Source: a bacterium
GTDB taxonomy: Bacteria; JACRDZ01; JAJRWM01
Direction: 5' to 3'
Assembly: GCA_024276815.1 (NCBI GenBank)
Contig: JAJRWM010000146.1
Location: 1-22,011, forward strand
Length of the DNA: 22,011 nucleotides
Of this stretch, positions 3,961-13,278 are shown piece by piece. The position numbers and the translations under genes were made by a program. The notes below the pieces were generated by a model. The model was not told the origin of the DNA and did not search any database. It saw only the letters and a list, made by a program, of their open reading frames with translations. How positions within the stretch are numbered: position 1 is the first letter of the stretch; each line of letters opens with the position of its first letter.

Positions 3961-5034
3961 ATGGATCTCGATGAATTACGAAAACAAATAAACGACATAG
4001 ATGAGCGAATCCTTGCGCTTCTCAATGAGCGGGCGGGTATCGCCAAAGGGATCGCCGAGGTTAAAACGAAACTGGGGCTGCCCTTTTACGCGTCAGGGCG
4101 GGAAGCCAAAGTAATCGGACGTTTAACCAGGATGAATAACGGCCCCTTTCCTGACAAGTCGGTTCAGGCGATTTTCCGGGAGATAATGTCGGCGACCCTG
4201 GCTCTGGAAAAACCGATCAGGATCGCTTATTTGGGGCCTGAAGCAACCTTTACTCATCTGGCGGCGATTGAGAAGTTTGGCTCTTCAGCTAACTTTATCC
4301 CGGCCAGAAGTATCAAGGATGTTTTCAGCCACGTTGAGCATGAGTGGGCCGACTACGGAGTGGTGCCCATTGAAAATTCATCCGAAGGCGTGGTCAATTA
4401 CACCCTGGATATGCTGATTGACTCGCCGCTGAAAATTTGCGCTGAACTGGTGCTGCCCATTTCGCAATTTCTGCTGTCAAAAGATACCGACCTGTCGAAG
4501 ATTGACACTGTCTACTCGCATCCCCAGGTCTGGGGGCAGTGCCGTATCTGGATGGAAGAAAATCTGCCGACCGCCAAACACGTCGAAGAGCTTTCGACCT
4601 CGCTGGCCGCTCAAAAAGCAAGTCAAAATCCGGGAACGGCCGCGATTGCCAGCTTCCTGGCCGCCAAGATTTACGATCTGAACATCCTGGGCAGCCGCAT
4701 CGAGGATAACGTGGATAATCGAACACGTTTTCTGGTTATCGGTAACAATATCGGCGAACCGACCGGGCAGGATAAGACGTCGATAATGTTCTCTATCAAA
4801 GATGAGGTCGGAGCCTTGTTCAATATGTTGAAACCGTTTGGCAACCATAACCTCAACCTCACCAAGATCGAGAGCCGCCCTTCCCGCCGTCAGGCCTGGC
4901 AATACCTGTTTTTTGTTGATTTCCGGGGCCATATCAGTCAAATGGAGGCTCGGGAAGCGCTCAAAGAGTTGGAAGGCAAGTGTCTATTATTAAAGGTCTT
5001 GGGGGCATACCCTGAAGACACGAGTTTAGGGTAG
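3961..5034 (+). CDS. pheA: Bifunctional chorismate mutase / prephenate dehydratase
   Basis: Converts chorismate to prephenate and then to phenylpyruvate, the committed steps to phenylalanine. The 357 residues show an N-terminal AroQ-type chorismate mutase (about 1-88, beginning DLDELRKQINDIDERIL), a prephenate dehydratase domain (about 88-265, with VPIENSSEG at 135-143, SHPQ at 186-189 and NRTRF at 253-257), and a C-terminal ACT domain with GALF (284-287) and ESRP (304-307). GALF and ESRP are the sites that bind phenylalanine for feedback inhibition in characterised enzymes. The start ATG follows GGAG (3951-3954) at 6 nt. It is the first gene of the aromatic operon; its TAG stop lies 6 bp before the hisC start. 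Confidence 0.96.
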   Translation: MDLDELRKQINDIDERILALLNERAGIAKGIAEVKTKLGLPFYASGREAKVIGRLTRMNNGPFPDKSVQAIFREIMSATLALEKPIRIAYLGPEATFTHLAAIEKFGSSANFIPARSIKDVFSHVEHEWADYGVVPIENSSEGVVNYTLDMLIDSPLKICAELVLPISQFLLSKDTDLSKIDTVYSHPQVWGQCRIWMEENLPTAKHVEELSTSLAAQKASQNPGTAAIASFLAAKIYDLNILGSRIEDNVDNRTRFLVIGNNIGEPTGQDKTSIMFSIKDEVGALFNMLKPFGNHNLNLTKIESRPSRRQAWQYLFFVDFRGHISQMEAREALKELEGKCLLLKVLGAYPEDTSLG

Positions 5035-6151: not shown

Positions 6152-7165
6152 ATGATAATCGTATTGCGCCCTGACGCTACCGAGGAGCAACTCGAACATA
6201 TTAAAGAGAAGCTGTCGGGCTTGGGTTTCAAGCTTAATATTTCCGTGGGAGCGGAACGTACGGTAATCGGTATTATCGGAGACCGTAGCGTTTTGGAGGA
6301 ATACCCCCTGACTGCTATGCCGGGCGTGGAATCCGCTATGGCGGTCAGTAAGCCTTACAAGGTCGCCAGCCGTGAATTCCACCCGGAAAACACGGTGATC
6401 AAGCTGGACAACCTGGTAATCGGGGCAGAAAAAATAATGGTTATCGCCGGTCCCTGCTCGGTTGAAGATAAAGATTTGTTGCTCGAAATCGCTCAAACCG
6501 TGAAGAAAATGGGCGCGACCATGCTCAGAGGCGGCGCGTTTAAACCGCGTACCTCGCCCTACGCTTTCCAGGGATTGGGAGAAGAAGGTCTGAAATATCT
6601 GGCGGCGGCCCGTGACGCTACCGGCCTGAAAATAATAACCGAAGTGATGGATCCCCGCGATGTCGCTTTGGTCGAGAAATACGCCGATATCATTCAACTG
6701 GGCGCCCGTAATATGCAAAACTTCAATTTGTTGAAAGAAGTGGGCAAGTGTAAAAAACCGGTCCTTTTAAAAAGAGGGCTGATGTCAACCATCATGGAAC
6801 TACTGATGTCGGCTGAGTATATCATGTCGCAGGGCAATAAAGAAGTCATTTTGTGCTAGAGAGGTATTCGCACCTTCGAGACCATGACTAGAAACACCCT
6901 GGACCTCAGCGCCGTCCCGGTGCTCAAGAAATTGACTCACCTACCGGTGTTTGTCGATCCCAGTCATGGAGTCGGCAGTTGGGAATATGTTGAGCCAATG
7001 TCTAAAGCCGCTGTCGCCGTGGGAGCTGACGGCTTAATGATCGAGGTTCACTCAAATCCTGAAGAAGCGTTCAGTGACGGCGCTCAGTCGTTGTTGCCGA
7101 AAAAGTTCGAAAAACTGATGAAGGCAATCCGACCCATCGCCAAGGCGACTGACAGAGAGATTTAA
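6152..7165 (+). pseudogene. aroF: DAHP synthase (type I beta) interrupted by one in-frame TAG
   Basis: 3-Deoxy-7-phosphoheptulonate synthase, the first step of the shikimate pathway (PEP plus erythrose-4-phosphate). Start: ATG 6152 after AAAGGAG (6138-6144). An N-terminal ferredoxin-like regulatory domain (about 1-70) precedes the TIM barrel. Codon 236 (6857-6859) is TAG inside VILC-stop-RGIRTFE, where the family has VILCERGIRTFE, so exactly one Glu codon (GAG to TAG) is changed. The frame then continues perfectly to TAA at 7165. With the stop counted as a residue, the metal ligands fall at C102, H272, E298 and D309, the numbering known for Thermotoga maritima DAHP synthase. Three of the four ligands lie after the stop, so a truncated product would be inactive. 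No other damage is seen. It may be a sequence error, a recent mutation or a read-through site. It is the only DAHP synthase in this operon. Confidence 0.93.
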
Positions 7166-7169
7166 AAAG

Positions 7170-8060
7170 ATGGAGGATGGTTTTTTCCGCAAAATAACCA
7201 TCGTTGGGGTTGGTTTGATTGGCGGCTCCATTGGTCTTAATTTAAAAAACAGGGCAAATCCTCCCCGGGTTACCGGTCTCGGGCGTCGTGAAAGCTCCCT
7301 CCGGAAAGCCCTGGAATGTCAGGCTGTTGATGAGATTACAACCTCTCTTGCGGAGGCTGTCGAGGACAGCGATCTAATCGTCTTATGCACTCCGGTCGGT
7401 AAAATCATTGATTATATTGGTCGATTATCTCAGGTGAAATTACCTGATAATTGTTTGCTCACGGACGCTGGCAGCGTTAAAGGCGCTATCGTTGACACGT
7501 GTTTGAAAAAATTACCGGTTCCCGGGCGTTTTGTCGCCGCTCACCCGATGGCCGGTTCGGAAAACTCCGGCGTTGAGCACGCTACCGCTGATTTGTTCAA
7601 GAAGACCACTTGCTTTATCACTCTTCAGCCCGGCCAAAACGAAAACGATGAAAATGTTCTGAAAGTGAAAAGCTTTTGGCAAAGCCTGGGCAGTGTCGTT
7701 ATCCGCAAAAATCCCGACGAACACGACCGTATGCTCGCGCGCTCCAGTCACTTGTCCCACATCCTGGCTCCGGCGTTTGTCCGGTTGATAAAAAATTATC
7801 AGGAAAACACTGATCCCGAGATAAATAACGCTCTGGCCGGAAGTTTTCGGGATATTACCAGGGTCGCTGGAAGCTCCCCTGCCCTCTGGTGTGACATCTT
7901 CTCTGCCAACAAAGAAAATACTGTGGCGGCGATCGAAGATTTCAGTTTCCAGTTGGAGCAATTAAAAAACTATCTTGTAAGTCTGGATTCCGGCGAGTTG
8001 ACAGAAGCTCTTGAGGAAGCCAGGAAGTTCAGAGACAGTATCTATAATGAAAAAGAATAG
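7170..8060 (+). CDS. tyrA: Prephenate dehydrogenase
   Basis: Oxidatively decarboxylates prephenate to 4-hydroxyphenylpyruvate for tyrosine, using NAD(P). The 296 residues hold a Rossmann domain with GVGLIGGS (13-20), TDAGSVK (98-104), AHPMAGSENSGVE with the catalytic-type His125, and the helical C-terminal part with HDRMLARSSHLSH. There is no C-terminal ACT domain, so this short form is probably not regulated through such a domain. It begins 5 bp after the aroF stop and its last 14 bp overlap aroA, which indicates a tight operon. No strong ribosome site is visible before the ATG, so translation may depend on ribosomes arriving from aroF. That would be affected if translation ended at the internal aroF stop. 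Confidence 0.95.
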   Translation: MEDGFFRKITIVGVGLIGGSIGLNLKNRANPPRVTGLGRRESSLRKALECQAVDEITTSLAEAVEDSDLIVLCTPVGKIIDYIGRLSQVKLPDNCLLTDAGSVKGAIVDTCLKKLPVPGRFVAAHPMAGSENSGVEHATADLFKKTTCFITLQPGQNENDENVLKVKSFWQSLGSVVIRKNPDEHDRMLARSSHLSHILAPAFVRLIKNYQENTDPEINNALAGSFRDITRVAGSSPALWCDIFSANKENTVAAIEDFSFQLEQLKNYLVSLDSGELTEALEEARKFRDSIYNEKE

Positions 8061-9336
8061 CTGGATAATCAAACCCCGGAAAGGCCTTAGGGGTATATTC
8101 ACGGTTCCGGGAGATAAATCAATTTCCCATCGTAGTCTGTTTTTCGGTTCGCTCGCCAACGGGATGACCGAGATTACCGGGTTTTTAGCCGGCGAAGACT
8201 GCTTGAGAACCCTGGAAGCCTTTCGGGGTCTGGGTGTTGAGATCTCCCATGATGGAGATCGGTTGACTATCCAGGGCAAGGGTTTGTTCGGCCTCAAGGA
8301 ACCGGTTAATGTTTTGGATATGGGTAATTCCGGCACTTCTACCAGGCTGTTCTGCGGTTTGTTGGCCGGGCAAAAGTTTTACAGCGTTTTAAGCGGCGAT
8401 AAATATCTCAATAATCGCCCGATGAAACGGGTGACAGCCCCGCTGGGCAAAATGGGCGCACGCATCTTGGGACGCGAACAAGGCAATCTGGCTCCTCTGG
8501 CAATAGCGGGCCAACCTTTAAAAGCTATTGTTCATCACTCAAAAATTGCCAGCGCCCAGGTTAAGACCTCCCTGACTTTGGCCGCTATTCACGCTTCCGG
8601 TAATACTGTCATCACGGAACCGCAAAAATCCCGGGATCATACAGAGAGGATGTTGTCCTGTTTAGGCTATCCGATAAAACAGGTCAACGATTTAGAAATT
8701 GAGGTTCCCGGTCACGCTGAAATGTCAGCCGCCCCGATTGACATCCCGGGCGACATCTCTTCCGCGGCTTTTTTTGTTGTGGCGGCTTTAATCACGCCGG
8801 ATTCAGAAATAGCCATCCAAAACGTCGGCCTTAATCCCACCCGTACCGGTATTATTGAAGTTTTGCGGGATATGGGCGCCAAGATTAAAATCGAAAATAT
8901 CCAGGAAATCAATTCGGAACCACGGGCTACCCTGATTGTTAAAAGCAGCCGGCTTAAAGGGATTGAAATCGGCGGCGGGATGATCCCCAGATTAATCGAT
9001 GAAATACCTATACTCGCGATTGCCGCCGCGGTCGCTGAAGGAGTTACGATCATTAAGGACGCTCAGGAACTGAGGGTCAAGGAGAGTGACCGCATCACGG
9101 CCGTAGTCAGTCAACTGAGAAAGCTGGGCGTTGACGCTACGGAGACCGGGGACGGCATGACAATTCAGGGTCGGGAGCGGCTCATGTCAGGAAAGATTAA
9201 CAGCTTCGGCGATCATCGGATCGCCATGGCTTTCGCTGTCGCTGCTCTGAACGCTGACCGGGAAGTTGAGATCATGGATATCGATTGCGTTAAAACTTCT
9301 TTTCCCGCTTTTTATTCAACCTTATCTTCTCTTTAA
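8047..9336 (+). CDS. aroA: 5-Enolpyruvylshikimate-3-phosphate synthase
   Basis: Transfers enolpyruvyl from PEP to shikimate-3-phosphate, the penultimate step to chorismate. The 429 residues from ATG 8047 begin MKKNSWIIKPRKGLRG. Family motifs are GDKSISHRSLFF near the N-terminus, NSGTSTRLFCGLL (PEP loop region), RPMKRVTAPLGKMGA, DEIPILAIAAA, ELRVKESDRI and FGDHRIAMAFAVAAL near the end. An in-frame TTG at 8011 would add 12 residues inside tyrA that do not resemble the family, so I chose the ATG. The gene overlaps tyrA by 14 bp. It is the last gene of the aromatic operon; the next gene has its own promoter and no clear hairpin terminator follows. Confidence 0.96.
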   Translation: MKKNSWIIKPRKGLRGIFTVPGDKSISHRSLFFGSLANGMTEITGFLAGEDCLRTLEAFRGLGVEISHDGDRLTIQGKGLFGLKEPVNVLDMGNSGTSTRLFCGLLAGQKFYSVLSGDKYLNNRPMKRVTAPLGKMGARILGREQGNLAPLAIAGQPLKAIVHHSKIASAQVKTSLTLAAIHASGNTVITEPQKSRDHTERMLSCLGYPIKQVNDLEIEVPGHAEMSAAPIDIPGDISSAAFFVVAALITPDSEIAIQNVGLNPTRTGIIEVLRDMGAKIKIENIQEINSEPRATLIVKSSRLKGIEIGGGMIPRLIDEIPILAIAAAVAEGVTIIKDAQELRVKESDRITAVVSQLRKLGVDATETGDGMTIQGRERLMSGKINSFGDHRIAMAFAVAALNADREVEIMDIDCVKTSFPAFYSTLSSL

Positions 9337-9477: not shown

Positions 9478-9501
9478 GTTAATTATTAATAATGCCGATT
9501 A
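9474..9501 (+). promoter_or_regulatory. Possible sigma-28 promoter overlapping the sigma-70 one
   Basis: TAACGTTA (9474-9481), 12 bp, then GCCGATTA (9494-9501). Against the flagellar sigma-28 consensus TAAAGTTT-N11-GCCGATAA this is 6/8 and 7/8, with a spacer 1 bp longer than optimal. It is placed correctly about 30 bp before ATG 9531. It is weaker evidence than the site at 11955. Confidence 0.35.
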
Positions 9502-9530
9502 TGTTCCTAAAAACCAAGCGAGGTGAAAAC

Positions 9531-10685
9531 ATGGGTAAAATGCTGTCGAAATACCTGACGTCTGGTATTAAGTTAACAAACGCCATATCTGATGATGCTG
9601 GAACAGTGCTTTTTAGCAGCGGTCATGAGATAACAAAAAAAGATATTGATTATTTAATCGAGAATCAAATTAATACCGTGAATGTTGAGGCTGACGATCT
9701 GCTCAAATTCCGCTCCCAGTCGAAAATGAGCGCGGAAAGCCGTTCAATAAACGCTTTAGAATACAGCAATCCCCTGCTTGAGGATTTACCGTCAACTGTT
9801 TCCAGGGAAACTCAAAAAGCGGCCATTGGGGCGGTACATTCCACCCTGAAGAATATAAACAACGGGCAACCGGTAAAACTGGCGCAAACCCAGGAAGCCG
9901 TTGATAGCATAGTGCTGGAAATATTTGATAACACCTCGTCGATTATCAACCTGCTGAATAGCGTTGATTTGGATAGCTATATTTTTTCACACTCGCTCAA
10001 TGTCTGTGTTTTAAGTATCCTGACCGCGATGGAACTAGGTGTTGATAAAGAAATGATTAAGAAAATAGGTATCGTCGCGTTGCTGCATGATATTGGCAAT
10101 ACCAAGATCGACCAGGGAATTCTAAACAAAAAAGGCAAATTGACAGAAGTGTAATTTGAGGAAGTCAGAAAACATCCCTTGTACTCCTATAAATTAATAT
10201 CCCAGGATGACAAATTTGACCCGGCCGCCGCCTATGGAGCGCTGCAACATCATGAAAAATTAAATGGAAGCGGTTATCCTCAGAAACTAAAAGGTTCCCA
10301 GATCACCCAGGACGCTAAGATATTATCTGTCGCTGATGTTTATGACGCGCTGACCTCGGAACGCCCTTTTCGGGACCGGCTGGAACCTTATGAAGCGATG
10401 AAAATAATTATCAGCGGCAATGGTACGCTCTTTTATCCCAATGTCGTCAGCGCTTTTGTAAAAGTTATGTCGCTCTATCCGGTAGAGAGCTTCGTCAAGC
10501 TGTCCAGCGGCGAGTTGGCGATTGTTACCAGGTCGTCAAAAAAATCGGCTATGATGCCGGTGGTTCGTGTTATAATCGATATTTCTGGGAACAAAGTTCG
10601 CGATAGCGAAGAAATCGATTTAAATTACGATACTCGTTATATCAGCGGCCCGATTAGTAGAACTTCCGAATTATTGCGTGGATAA
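9531..10685 (+). pseudogene. HD-GYP c-di-GMP phosphodiesterase-like, interrupted by one in-frame TAA
   Basis: Paralog of the next gene, aligning with it without gaps around the lesion. Start: ATG 9531 after GAGGTG, beginning MGKMLSKYLTSGIKL like the paralog's MSKMLVKYLTPGVTT; an upstream ATG at 9492 lacks this match. The protein has an N-terminal domain (1-130), the HD half (HDIGN at 186-190) and, after the stop, the second half with HHEKLNGSGYP and ADVYDALTSERPF. Codon 208 (10152-10154) is TAA where the paralog has GAA (E208). The rest reads open to TAA 10685, 384 residues counting the stop. The HDIGK lysine is Asn here (AAT at 10098-10100, paralog AAG). Truncation would remove the HH and GYP motifs, so the gene is inactive unless the stop is read through or is an error. 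Confidence 0.88.
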
Positions 10686-10688
10686 ATT

Positions 10689-11837
10689 ATGAGCAAAATG
10701 CTGGTCAAATACCTGACGCCTGGCGTTACAACCGCTCGCCCGATAAAAGATGAAAATGATAACGTCCTTTTCCCCAGAGGTCACAAATTAACCGAACAAG
10801 ACATTCAAAGCCTGGTTGAGCGGAGAATAGTGCTTGTTTTTGTGGATAAAGAAGACCTGTTCCAACTCCGAAAAAAGGCCCAAGGCGACAAGGAAGAACC
10901 TGCTGCCGGTTCACTGCAATACAAAACGCCCTTGATCGATGATGTTCAGCTTCTGGTATCTGAGGATACCCAGAAAGCGGCCATTGAGGCGGTGCATTCC
11001 GTAATTGGCGATATGCGTAGCGGCAAGCCGCTTGATTCAGCCCAATCGCAGGATGTTGTTGATACTATGGTCCTGGAAATGATGGCCAATAAAGACGCCA
11101 TGGTCAACCTGATTGACATAAAAACCTTCGATGATTACACTTTCTCCCACCCAGTTAATGTCTGCGCTTTAAGTATCCTGATCGCTATCGAGATGGGGTG
11201 CTCCGCGGAGGAAATCAAAGTGTTTGGAGTTGGCGCGTTGTTGCACGATGTTGGTAAGGTAGAAATTCAGGACGAAATTCTTAATAAAAGAGGCGCTTTG
11301 ACAGACGAAGAATTCCTGGAAATGAAAAAGCATCCCGTCTTCAGCCGCAATATGTTGGTCCAGGATAAAAAAATCAGCGAGCAATCCATCAATATCGCTT
11401 TTCAGCATCATGAAAAATTCAACGGGGCCGGTTATCCGCAAGGATTAAGCGGTGAACAAATAGATAAATTCGCCCGGGTCGCGGCCATCGCCGATGTCTA
11501 CGACGCTTTAACCTCGGACCGGATTTACCGACCAAAAATGAAGCCCTATGAAGCGATGAAAATAATTCTCAGCGGTAACGGCACTCATTTTGACCCGGAA
11601 GTGGTCAAGGTTTTTGTCAAGCACATGTCTGTTTACCCGGCTGAAAGCATCGTCAGGCTGTCGAGTAACGAGATAGCGATAGTTATCAAGGCCAATGAAA
11701 ATACTTTAATCGCGCCGGTTGTGAGATTAATAGTTGACAAAAACGGCAATAAGGTTTCTAATAAAGAAGAGATTAATTTGAGCGAAGATTCTCGATACAT
11801 ATGCGAAGCATTGTCAGAATCCGATTTAAACCCATAA
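10689..11837 (+). CDS. HD-GYP domain protein, probable c-di-GMP phosphodiesterase
   Basis: An intact 382-residue protein. HD-GYP proteins hydrolyse cyclic di-GMP and commonly promote motility. An N-terminal domain (about 1-130) begins SKMLVKYLTPG and has the usual G-(x)-L-(x)-G-(x)-LTE pattern. The HD-GYP domain carries HDVGK (186-190), the following H215, HH (240-241), GYP (248-250) and ADVYDAL (268-274), so all expected metal and signature positions are present. A small beta-rich tail (about 300-370) is typical of the family. It starts 3 bp after the stop of its tandem paralog, with only a weak GTGGA ribosome site, so coupling is likely. It ends in TAA TAA TAA. The sigma-28 promoter and the FlgM-like gene follow directly, linking it to motility. 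Confidence 0.93.
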   Translation: MSKMLVKYLTPGVTTARPIKDENDNVLFPRGHKLTEQDIQSLVERRIVLVFVDKEDLFQLRKKAQGDKEEPAAGSLQYKTPLIDDVQLLVSEDTQKAAIEAVHSVIGDMRSGKPLDSAQSQDVVDTMVLEMMANKDAMVNLIDIKTFDDYTFSHPVNVCALSILIAIEMGCSAEEIKVFGVGALLHDVGKVEIQDEILNKRGALTDEEFLEMKKHPVFSRNMLVQDKKISEQSINIAFQHHEKFNGAGYPQGLSGEQIDKFARVAAIADVYDALTSDRIYRPKMKPYEAMKIILSGNGTHFDPEVVKVFVKHMSVYPAESIVRLSSNEIAIVIKANENTLIAPVVRLIVDKNGNKVSNKEEINLSEDSRYICEALSESDLNP

Positions 11838-11954: not shown

Positions 11955-11981
11955 TAAAGTGAGAAATGTATTTGCCGATAA
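11955..11981 (+). promoter_or_regulatory. Sigma-28 (FliA/SigD-type) flagellar promoter
   Basis: TAAAGTGA (11955-11962), exactly 11 bp, then GCCGATAA (11974-11981). The minus-10 matches consensus at 8/8 and the minus-35 at 6/8. Transcription would start near 11988-11990, about 55 nt before the ATG at 12043 of the FlgM-like gene. Confidence 0.8.
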
Positions 11982-12042
11982 TAATAATCACTTAGGTTTA
12001 TATGATGTTGGGGGTATCGCCGAATGGGAGAGTTGTTTATAT

Positions 12043-12312
12043 ATGAAGCCAATAGACAGGAAGCGGAAATCCCCATCTTTGACTCCACTCTTATTGAGAG
12101 TTGACAAGAAAAAATCCAACCAGACGGAATCCACATCGACAGTGAACGCGAATTATTTCAGCGACCCAAAACTAGTCGCTAAAATTAAAGGTATCGAAAT
12201 TATTAGGGAAGAAAAGATCAGCGAAGCGAAGGCCAAATTATTGCGCCGTTCCTATGAGTCATCTCACATCTTGGATAACCTGGCAAGCCAGATACTCAAA
12301 AAACTCGGTTAA
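12043..12312 (+). CDS. flgM: FlgM-like anti-sigma-28 factor
   Basis: An 89-residue protein. The C-terminal half reads IEIIREEKISEAKAKLL, a spacer, then ILDNLASQILKKLG. This is the FlgM pattern in which two helices (IREEKI...IKAKI and the terminal IA.KLL helix) bind and silence the flagellar sigma factor. The N-terminal half is basic, Ser/Thr-rich and probably disordered, as in FlgM. I chose ATG 12043 (GGGAG about 13 nt upstream) over an in-frame GTG at 11959, because that GTG lies within the sigma-28 promoter and would be upstream of the transcript start. The promoter fits the known negative feedback in which flgM is expressed by sigma-28. The nitronate monooxygenase gene follows after 15 bp. 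No other flagellar genes are in the window. Confidence 0.75.
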   Translation: MKPIDRKRKSPSLTPLLLRVDKKKSNQTESTSTVNANYFSDPKLVAKIKGIEIIREEKISEAKAKLLRRSYESSHILDNLASQILKKLG

Positions 12313-12327
12313 CAATAAGGGGGAAGT

Positions 12328-13278
12328 ATGGAGTTACCACAATTAAAATTTGGGAATATTGTGGCAAAAATCCCAATAATTCAGGGTGGAATGGCAGTGC
12401 GGGTATCAACCGCGCCGCTTGCCGCAGCGGTCGCCAATGAAGGCGGTATCGGTGTTATCGCGGTTAGCGGAATGCCCATAGATGAAATAAGAGAGCAAAT
12501 CAGGGTAGCCAAAACCTTGACGAAAGGTATCCTGGGTATCAACGCGATGGTGGACTTGAGGGAATTCTTCGAAACGATTAAAGCCACTATCGAAGAAGGT
12601 ATCGATGTTATTTTTGCCGGCGCCGGATTTTCCCGCGATCTTTTCGCGATCGGCAAAGAAGCCGGTATTCCCGTGGTACCCATTGTCTCGTCAGCCAGAC
12701 TGGCCAAAATCGCCGAGAGATTGGGAGCCGCGGCGGTTGTTGTCTAAGGTAAGGAAGCCGGGGGGCATCTGGGCACGGATATTTCAATAAAAACCCTGGT
12801 GCCTGAAATACGTAAAGCCATTAAAATTCCCTTAATTGCCGCCGGAGGTATTATCGATGGCAAGGGTATCGCTGAAATGTTGAGGATGGGCGCTAACGGC
12901 GTTCAGATGGCGACTCGCTTTGTCTTGAGCGATGAATGCACTGTGTCCCGAAAATTTAAAGAGCTTTATCTGAAAGCTGAAAAAGATGACGTGGTAATTA
13001 TCAAGAGCCCGGTTGGACTGCCGGGACGCGCGATAAGAAATAAATTTATCAAGGCTGTCGAGAATGATGAGGTTGAGTTATATCCCGACTGCGACGGTTG
13101 TCTGAAGAATTGTCACCGCGATTATTGTATTCTCCATGCGCTGAACAACGCTCAACAGGGCGATATCGACAACGGCGTTGTCTTTGCTGGTGAAAATGTT
13201 TACAAGATTAAAGATATTTTGCCGGTAAAAGAAATCTTCAGCCGCCTGGTTTCTGAAGTCAAAGCGGAACCAGCCTAG
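12328..13278 (+). pseudogene. Nitronate monooxygenase family FMN enzyme, interrupted by one in-frame TAA
   Basis: FMN-dependent TIM-barrel enzyme of the nitronate monooxygenase / FabK-like enoyl reductase family. Start: ATG 12328 after GGGGGAAG. Motifs are PIIQGGM (phosphate/FMN), ANEGGIGVIA, GAGFSRDLF, IAAGGIIDG and GVQMATRFVLS. Codon 140 (12745-12747) is TAA inside VVV-stop-GKEAGGHLG, where the family has VVVEGxEAGGHxG, so a single Glu codon is lost. The catalytic-type His of EAGGH (147) and the FMN-phosphate loop lie beyond the stop. The frame then runs cleanly to TAG 13278, 316 residues counting the stop. The C-terminus has a cysteine-rich patch (CDGCLKNCHRDYC) seen in some anaerobe homologs. 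The substrate cannot be told; both nitronate oxidation and enoyl-ACP reduction occur in the family. Confidence 0.88.

Follow-up and report, generated by a model that had tools for sequence, protein, structure and literature searches.

An in-frame TAG in the aroF gene of the bacterium investigated here belongs to a set of about 26 in-frame TAA and TAG codons detected in 605 kb of its genome, nearly restricted to positions of glutamate and in many cases located in essential genes. This set, the TAG of aroF included, most likely stems from faulty sequence data, although the changes do not bear the full signature expected of a uniform fault. The aroF gene is located in the window, i.e. the whole stretch of 22,011 nucleotides that was analysed, which is the entire contig C72 of an assembly of 246 contigs and 2.39 Mb rated 91% complete. 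That the cause of the stops acts genome-wide follows from the comparison of conserved glutamate columns, of which 10/2023 are occupied by a stop codon in this genome versus 0/2188 in two control genomes treated alike, making the genome a clear outlier.

The in-frame TAG of aroF

The aroF gene (6152 to 7165, forward strand), encoding a type I-beta DAHP synthase with an N-terminal ferredoxin-like regulatory domain, extends from the ATG at 6152 to the TAA ending at 7165 and is intact save for one TAG at 6857 to 6859 (TGC TAG AGA, 6854 to 6862), with which it is not an open reading frame in the standard code. The first-pass annotation had described this single TAG at codon 236, the otherwise perfect frame, the conserved glutamate at the position and its derivation from GAG by a one-step change, all of which hold, with glutamate found in 36/36 aligned homologous loci and encoded by GAA or GAG in the homologues inspected. 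Translated through the TAG, the product is a full-length enzyme with matches to the Pfam families DAHP_synth_1 (PF00793, E 9e-85) and DAHP_snth_FXD (PF18152, E 1e-21). It aligns with 4grs and, ungapped across residues 1 to 332 and with glutamate opposite the TAG, with 1rzm, the DAHP synthase of T. maritima. The latter alignment confirmed the assignment of the metal ligands C102, H272, E298 and D309 in the T. maritima numbering, which are all kept in aroF (codons checked by eye) and of which H272, E298 and D309 lie downstream of the TAG.

Neither the remainder of aroF nor the operon displays signs of decay. The intact neighbours on the forward strand are a chorismate mutase/prephenate dehydratase gene (3961 to 5034), recognized from its open reading frame and homologues, a prephenate dehydrogenase-like gene (7170 to 8060) and an aroA (EPSP synthase)-like gene (8011 to 9336), with all three names derived from sequence motifs. 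A search for another DAHP synthase gene, which the first-pass annotation had proposed, was run and found none in the 246 contigs (2.39 Mb, 91% complete), with aroF as the sole one.

In-frame stop codons across the genome

Two further genes of the window are interrupted in the same way. An HD-GYP-type HD domain gene (9492 to 10685, forward strand) contains one in-frame TAA at 10152 to 10154, where glutamate is found in 5/5 homologues and in the tandem paralogue at 10689 to 11837, and a nitronate monooxygenase/FabK-like gene (12328 to 13278, forward strand) contains one in-frame TAA at 12745 to 12747, the glutamate position of the motif VVVxGKEAGGH, with glutamate in the aligning paralogue. The read-through product of the latter matches the Pfam family NMO at residues 13 to 309 (E 3.1e-62). 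Together with the genome-wide set, these two stops rule out an event private to aroF.

The genome-wide counts cover 605 kb of 2389 kb, including two short loci, and were obtained by six-frame comparison against relatives, a complete genome from a distant organism and portions of E. coli K-12, whereby best-frame filtering with the stops kept was used for the stop list. A six-frame comparison with the stops masked as X had resulted in many wrong-frame matches and was hence replaced, while a codon-bias scan for interrupted genes flagged the true cases GlnA, trigger factor and PlsX, but was too noisy alone. Among the approximately 26 accepted stops none is a TGA. Homologues possess glutamate at the stop of aroF, the HD-GYP and NMO genes, EF-Ts, PyrH (first stop), GltD, PlsX, a UbiA/MenA-type gene, GAPDH (WYDNxWGY), FabH (TSDxW), a NuoG-like gene, PtsI and PrmC (second stop), and in the case of GlnA glutamate was assigned from the motif; some names of interrupted genes likewise rest on motif reading. 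Stops at variable places that can accept glutamate occur in ClpX, trigger factor, GalT, IlvB, RplA, PrmC (first stop), a HAMP protein, a glycosyltransferase and, twice, in genes of uncertain identity. Two stops are located at serine-like positions, occupied in homologues by Ser, Thr, Ala or Leu, namely the second stop of PyrH (L009+6827) and L075+16077. Comparing paralogues inside the genome led to the same result. PyrH and PrmC, although interrupted twice each, are otherwise well conserved proteins.

When 80 loci from other uncultured genomes were tested alike, a stop was observed at 2/7581 conserved glutamate columns, and both cases look like gene-end or wrong-frame alignments. A stop at the glutamate position of aroF is hence improbable as a chance event. 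The stop pattern was absent from the relative G001 of the same phylum and likewise from the closest relatives with data. The first-pass annotation had treated the TAG as an event specific to aroF, a view that is refuted by about 26 similar stops in 605 kb that include genes which cannot be lost.

Several interrupted loci are of interest in their own right. The adjacent, essential genes for EF-Ts and PyrH are interrupted by three in-frame TAR codons over a span of 680 bases (L009, contig C8, 6150 to 6827). The gene for PrmC, the release-factor-activating methylase, has two in-frame TAG codons (L252, contig C226, 739 to 1252, minus strand) and is directly preceded by an intact prfA. On contig C5 (L006, approximately 1422 to 1917), ferritin-like (rubrerythrin-type) frames are arranged head to tail in one frame with single stops between them and represent either separate genes or one interrupted gene.

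Data-level fault and glutamate decoding as possible explanations

With prior rarity taken into account, a fault in the sequence data is ranked first, decoding of the stop codons as glutamate second, and a real local mutation or a mutator lineage behind. A fault would consist of G-to-T changes in the consensus, equivalent to C-to-A on the opposite strand, that originate in DNA damage, low contig coverage or an unknown defect, and such changes would surface as stops mainly since glutamate codons are the commonest codons converted in this way. The living cell would then carry GAG at codon 236 and produce a normal DAHP synthase. Consistent with a fault, the stops are spread through unrelated and essential genes that no cell could lose, and all assignable stops fit GAR to TAR or TCG to TAG, i.e. 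G to T or C to A only, with the stops at serine-like positions as expected from TCG to TAG by C to A.

On the other hand, a uniform G-to-T/C-to-A fault predicts the replacements Asp>Tyr, Gly>Cys, Gly>Trp and Ser>Tyr and also TGA codons derived from GGA. An excess over the control was absent for Asp>Tyr (3/1511 versus 8/1909), Gly>Cys (8/2540 versus 14/3113) and Ser>Tyr (5/1395 versus 8/1729), and the drastic changes pooled amounted to 47 versus 46 when scaled from the control by the number of columns. That neither a TGA nor a Tyr-derived stop is present among 17 assignable stops has a P of 0.005 under the uniform fault, which at the observed glutamate rate is rejected with P 3e-11; when the rate is allowed to vary, the comparison has limited power, and the likelihood ratio for changes at glutamate only takes values of 161, 4 or less than 1 according to which classes and columns are included. 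By our own weighing, the evidence against a uniform fault corresponds to P of about 0.001 to 0.01, which is moderate and not conclusive. The counts would be matched more closely by an artefact restricted to GAA and GAG words than by a uniform fault. We know of no process that limits sequence errors to such words, and when a fault acting on GAR words irrespective of frame and strand was considered, the other codon phases did not show an excess, in a test of little power. Also against a uniform fault, columns of the window that are conserved among homologues show no greater deviation than those of other genomes. Nine tRNAs did not show U-C or G-A stem mismatches, nor did the tmRNA show damage of the G-to-T type (by-eye reading). 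The tmRNA is ordinary, with the tag ANQYDYALAA (L058, contig C28, 2989 to 3340, minus strand).

According to the main rival, unlikely in our assessment, UAA and UAG are decoded as glutamate at internal sites, by natural suppression or a dual-meaning code, while still ending most genes. GAA and GAG would drift harmlessly to TAA and TAG, and other G-to-T changes would be purged by selection. Glutamate decoding accommodates the excess of stops at conserved glutamate columns over the controls in combination with the missing missense excess, the finding that every accepted stop is TAA or TAG and none TGA, and the presence of two such codons each in the essential and otherwise well conserved PyrH and PrmC. 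What it lacks is the decoding machinery. A search by anticodon-loop patterns and similarity to tRNA-Glu did not detect a UUA or CUA anticodon among the 33 tRNAs of the 91%-complete assembly, a set that is probably incomplete, and the one tRNA-Glu found has a UUC anticodon, reading GAA and GAG. Two candidate suppressor tRNAs were rejected, as the match at C65:9103 corresponds to the strand of an anticodon stem in a long-armed tRNA and that at C39:6345 to a tRNA-Lys(UUU). Release factors are normal, with RF1 uninterrupted and above the NCBIfam cut-off and with the recognition motifs PxT (PVT) and SPF as well as GGQ present in RF1 and RF2, so that neither factor is recognizably altered. TAR also remains the main terminator, as TAA and TAG end 66% and TGA 34% of the long genes without a preference for TGA, and backup stops are not in excess, the next in-frame stop following at a median of 18 to 23 codons after TAA/TAG and of 10 codons after TGA. 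Glutamate decoding further does not explain the two stops at serine-like positions and is absent from the other tested genome of the phylum.

A bacterium with intact RF1 and RF2 reading UAR as glutamate at about 1% or less of its glutamate sites would represent an early, ambiguous stop codon capture in which PrmC itself is interrupted twice, a scenario to which we assign a low probability. If UAR is read through, PrmC would couple the strength of termination to its own read-through, and if the stops are present in the cell, this would be the first bacterium known to us to decode UAR as glutamate. Dual-meaning UAR is, to our knowledge, known so far from eukaryotes only. The two leading explanations thus have opposite weaknesses, an artefact without its missense trace and decoding without its machinery.

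It is improbable that the sampled strain truly carries a nonsense mutation in aroF and obtains aromatic amino acids externally or through an unassembled second enzyme. Such a mutation would concern the single DAHP synthase of a 91%-complete assembly, and the window indeed contains an HD-GYP gene in which the stop and the loss of two conserved residues resemble ordinary decay, but the mutation leaves the equivalent stops in EF-Ts, PyrH, GAPDH, FabH, PlsX and others unexplained and is at odds with the lack of decay in the rest of aroF and its operon. Least probable is a mutator lineage with real G:C to T:A mutations at a high rate, which matches the G-to-T or C-to-A character of the assignable nonsense changes, but in which Asp>Tyr or Ala>Ser replacements should survive selection longer than stops in essential genes, the opposite of what the data display.

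The first-pass annotation had named read-through, mutation and error as the options for the aroF TAG, which was the correct set, and its interpretation of the stop is, overall, partly supported. Read-through with glutamate is retained as a possible outcome, while every supporting part of it that was tested is missing; the conclusion that the operon has lost its first-step enzyme should be dropped, as should the focus on aroF, until the reads are seen. With respect to the preferred explanation, a fault in the data would imply that a public genome holds false gene truncations numbering in the dozens to hundreds and that conclusions drawn from one gene, such as 'aroF is broken', are unsafe. The comparison of missense against nonsense changes would then provide a cheap test for such false truncations.

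Known stop codon reassignments and further features of the window

In the peritrich ciliate code (NCBI table 30), a eukaryotic full reassignment, UAA and UAG encode glutamate and UGA is the stop. Both UAR codons would equally mean glutamate in the present genome, in which UAR is, in contrast to the complete reassignment in peritrichs, the main terminator. In the nonstop nuclear code of Blastocrithidia, UAR encodes glutamate and UAA also serves as stop, with tRNA-Glu(UUA) and tRNA-Glu(CUA), a changed eRF1, UAA as sole terminator and tandem UAA codons after the true stops (PMC12153298). The present genome shares with Blastocrithidia the occurrence of UAA and UAG at glutamate positions within genes and the continued termination at UAA. 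It differs in that none of the cognate tRNAs (from a tRNA set that is probably incomplete), the factor change, termination by UAA only or the tandem stops were seen, and in that UAR makes up less than 1% of the glutamate codons.

Bacterial reassignments concern UGA, which is read as Trp, for example in Organicella (PMC8204192), or as Gly in Gracilibacteria and Absconditabacteria (PMC8629427). As in the present case, these came to light in uncultured bacteria through in-frame stops that interrupt essential genes; however, a matching tRNA is present and true recoders lose release factor 2, while the present genome retains both factors and uses UGA as a normal stop. False inferences about stop codons arising from pseudogenes or contamination have been described in the Codetta screen (PMC8629427). 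In-frame stops mimic a reassignment in those cases as well, but the stops of this genome are located in essential genes on many contigs and at glutamate rather than at Trp.

A nucleotide search of E. coli with one gene of the window gave no match. The upstream HD-GYP copy (9492 to 10685) has, besides its TAA, Lys>Asn at 10098 in HDIGK and Asp>Tyr at 10434 in FDP, residues which homologues keep, and as judged from these changes the gene may be a degenerate, decaying duplicate. A short, putatively FlgM-like reading frame at 11959 to 12312 separates the HD-GYP pair from the NMO gene.
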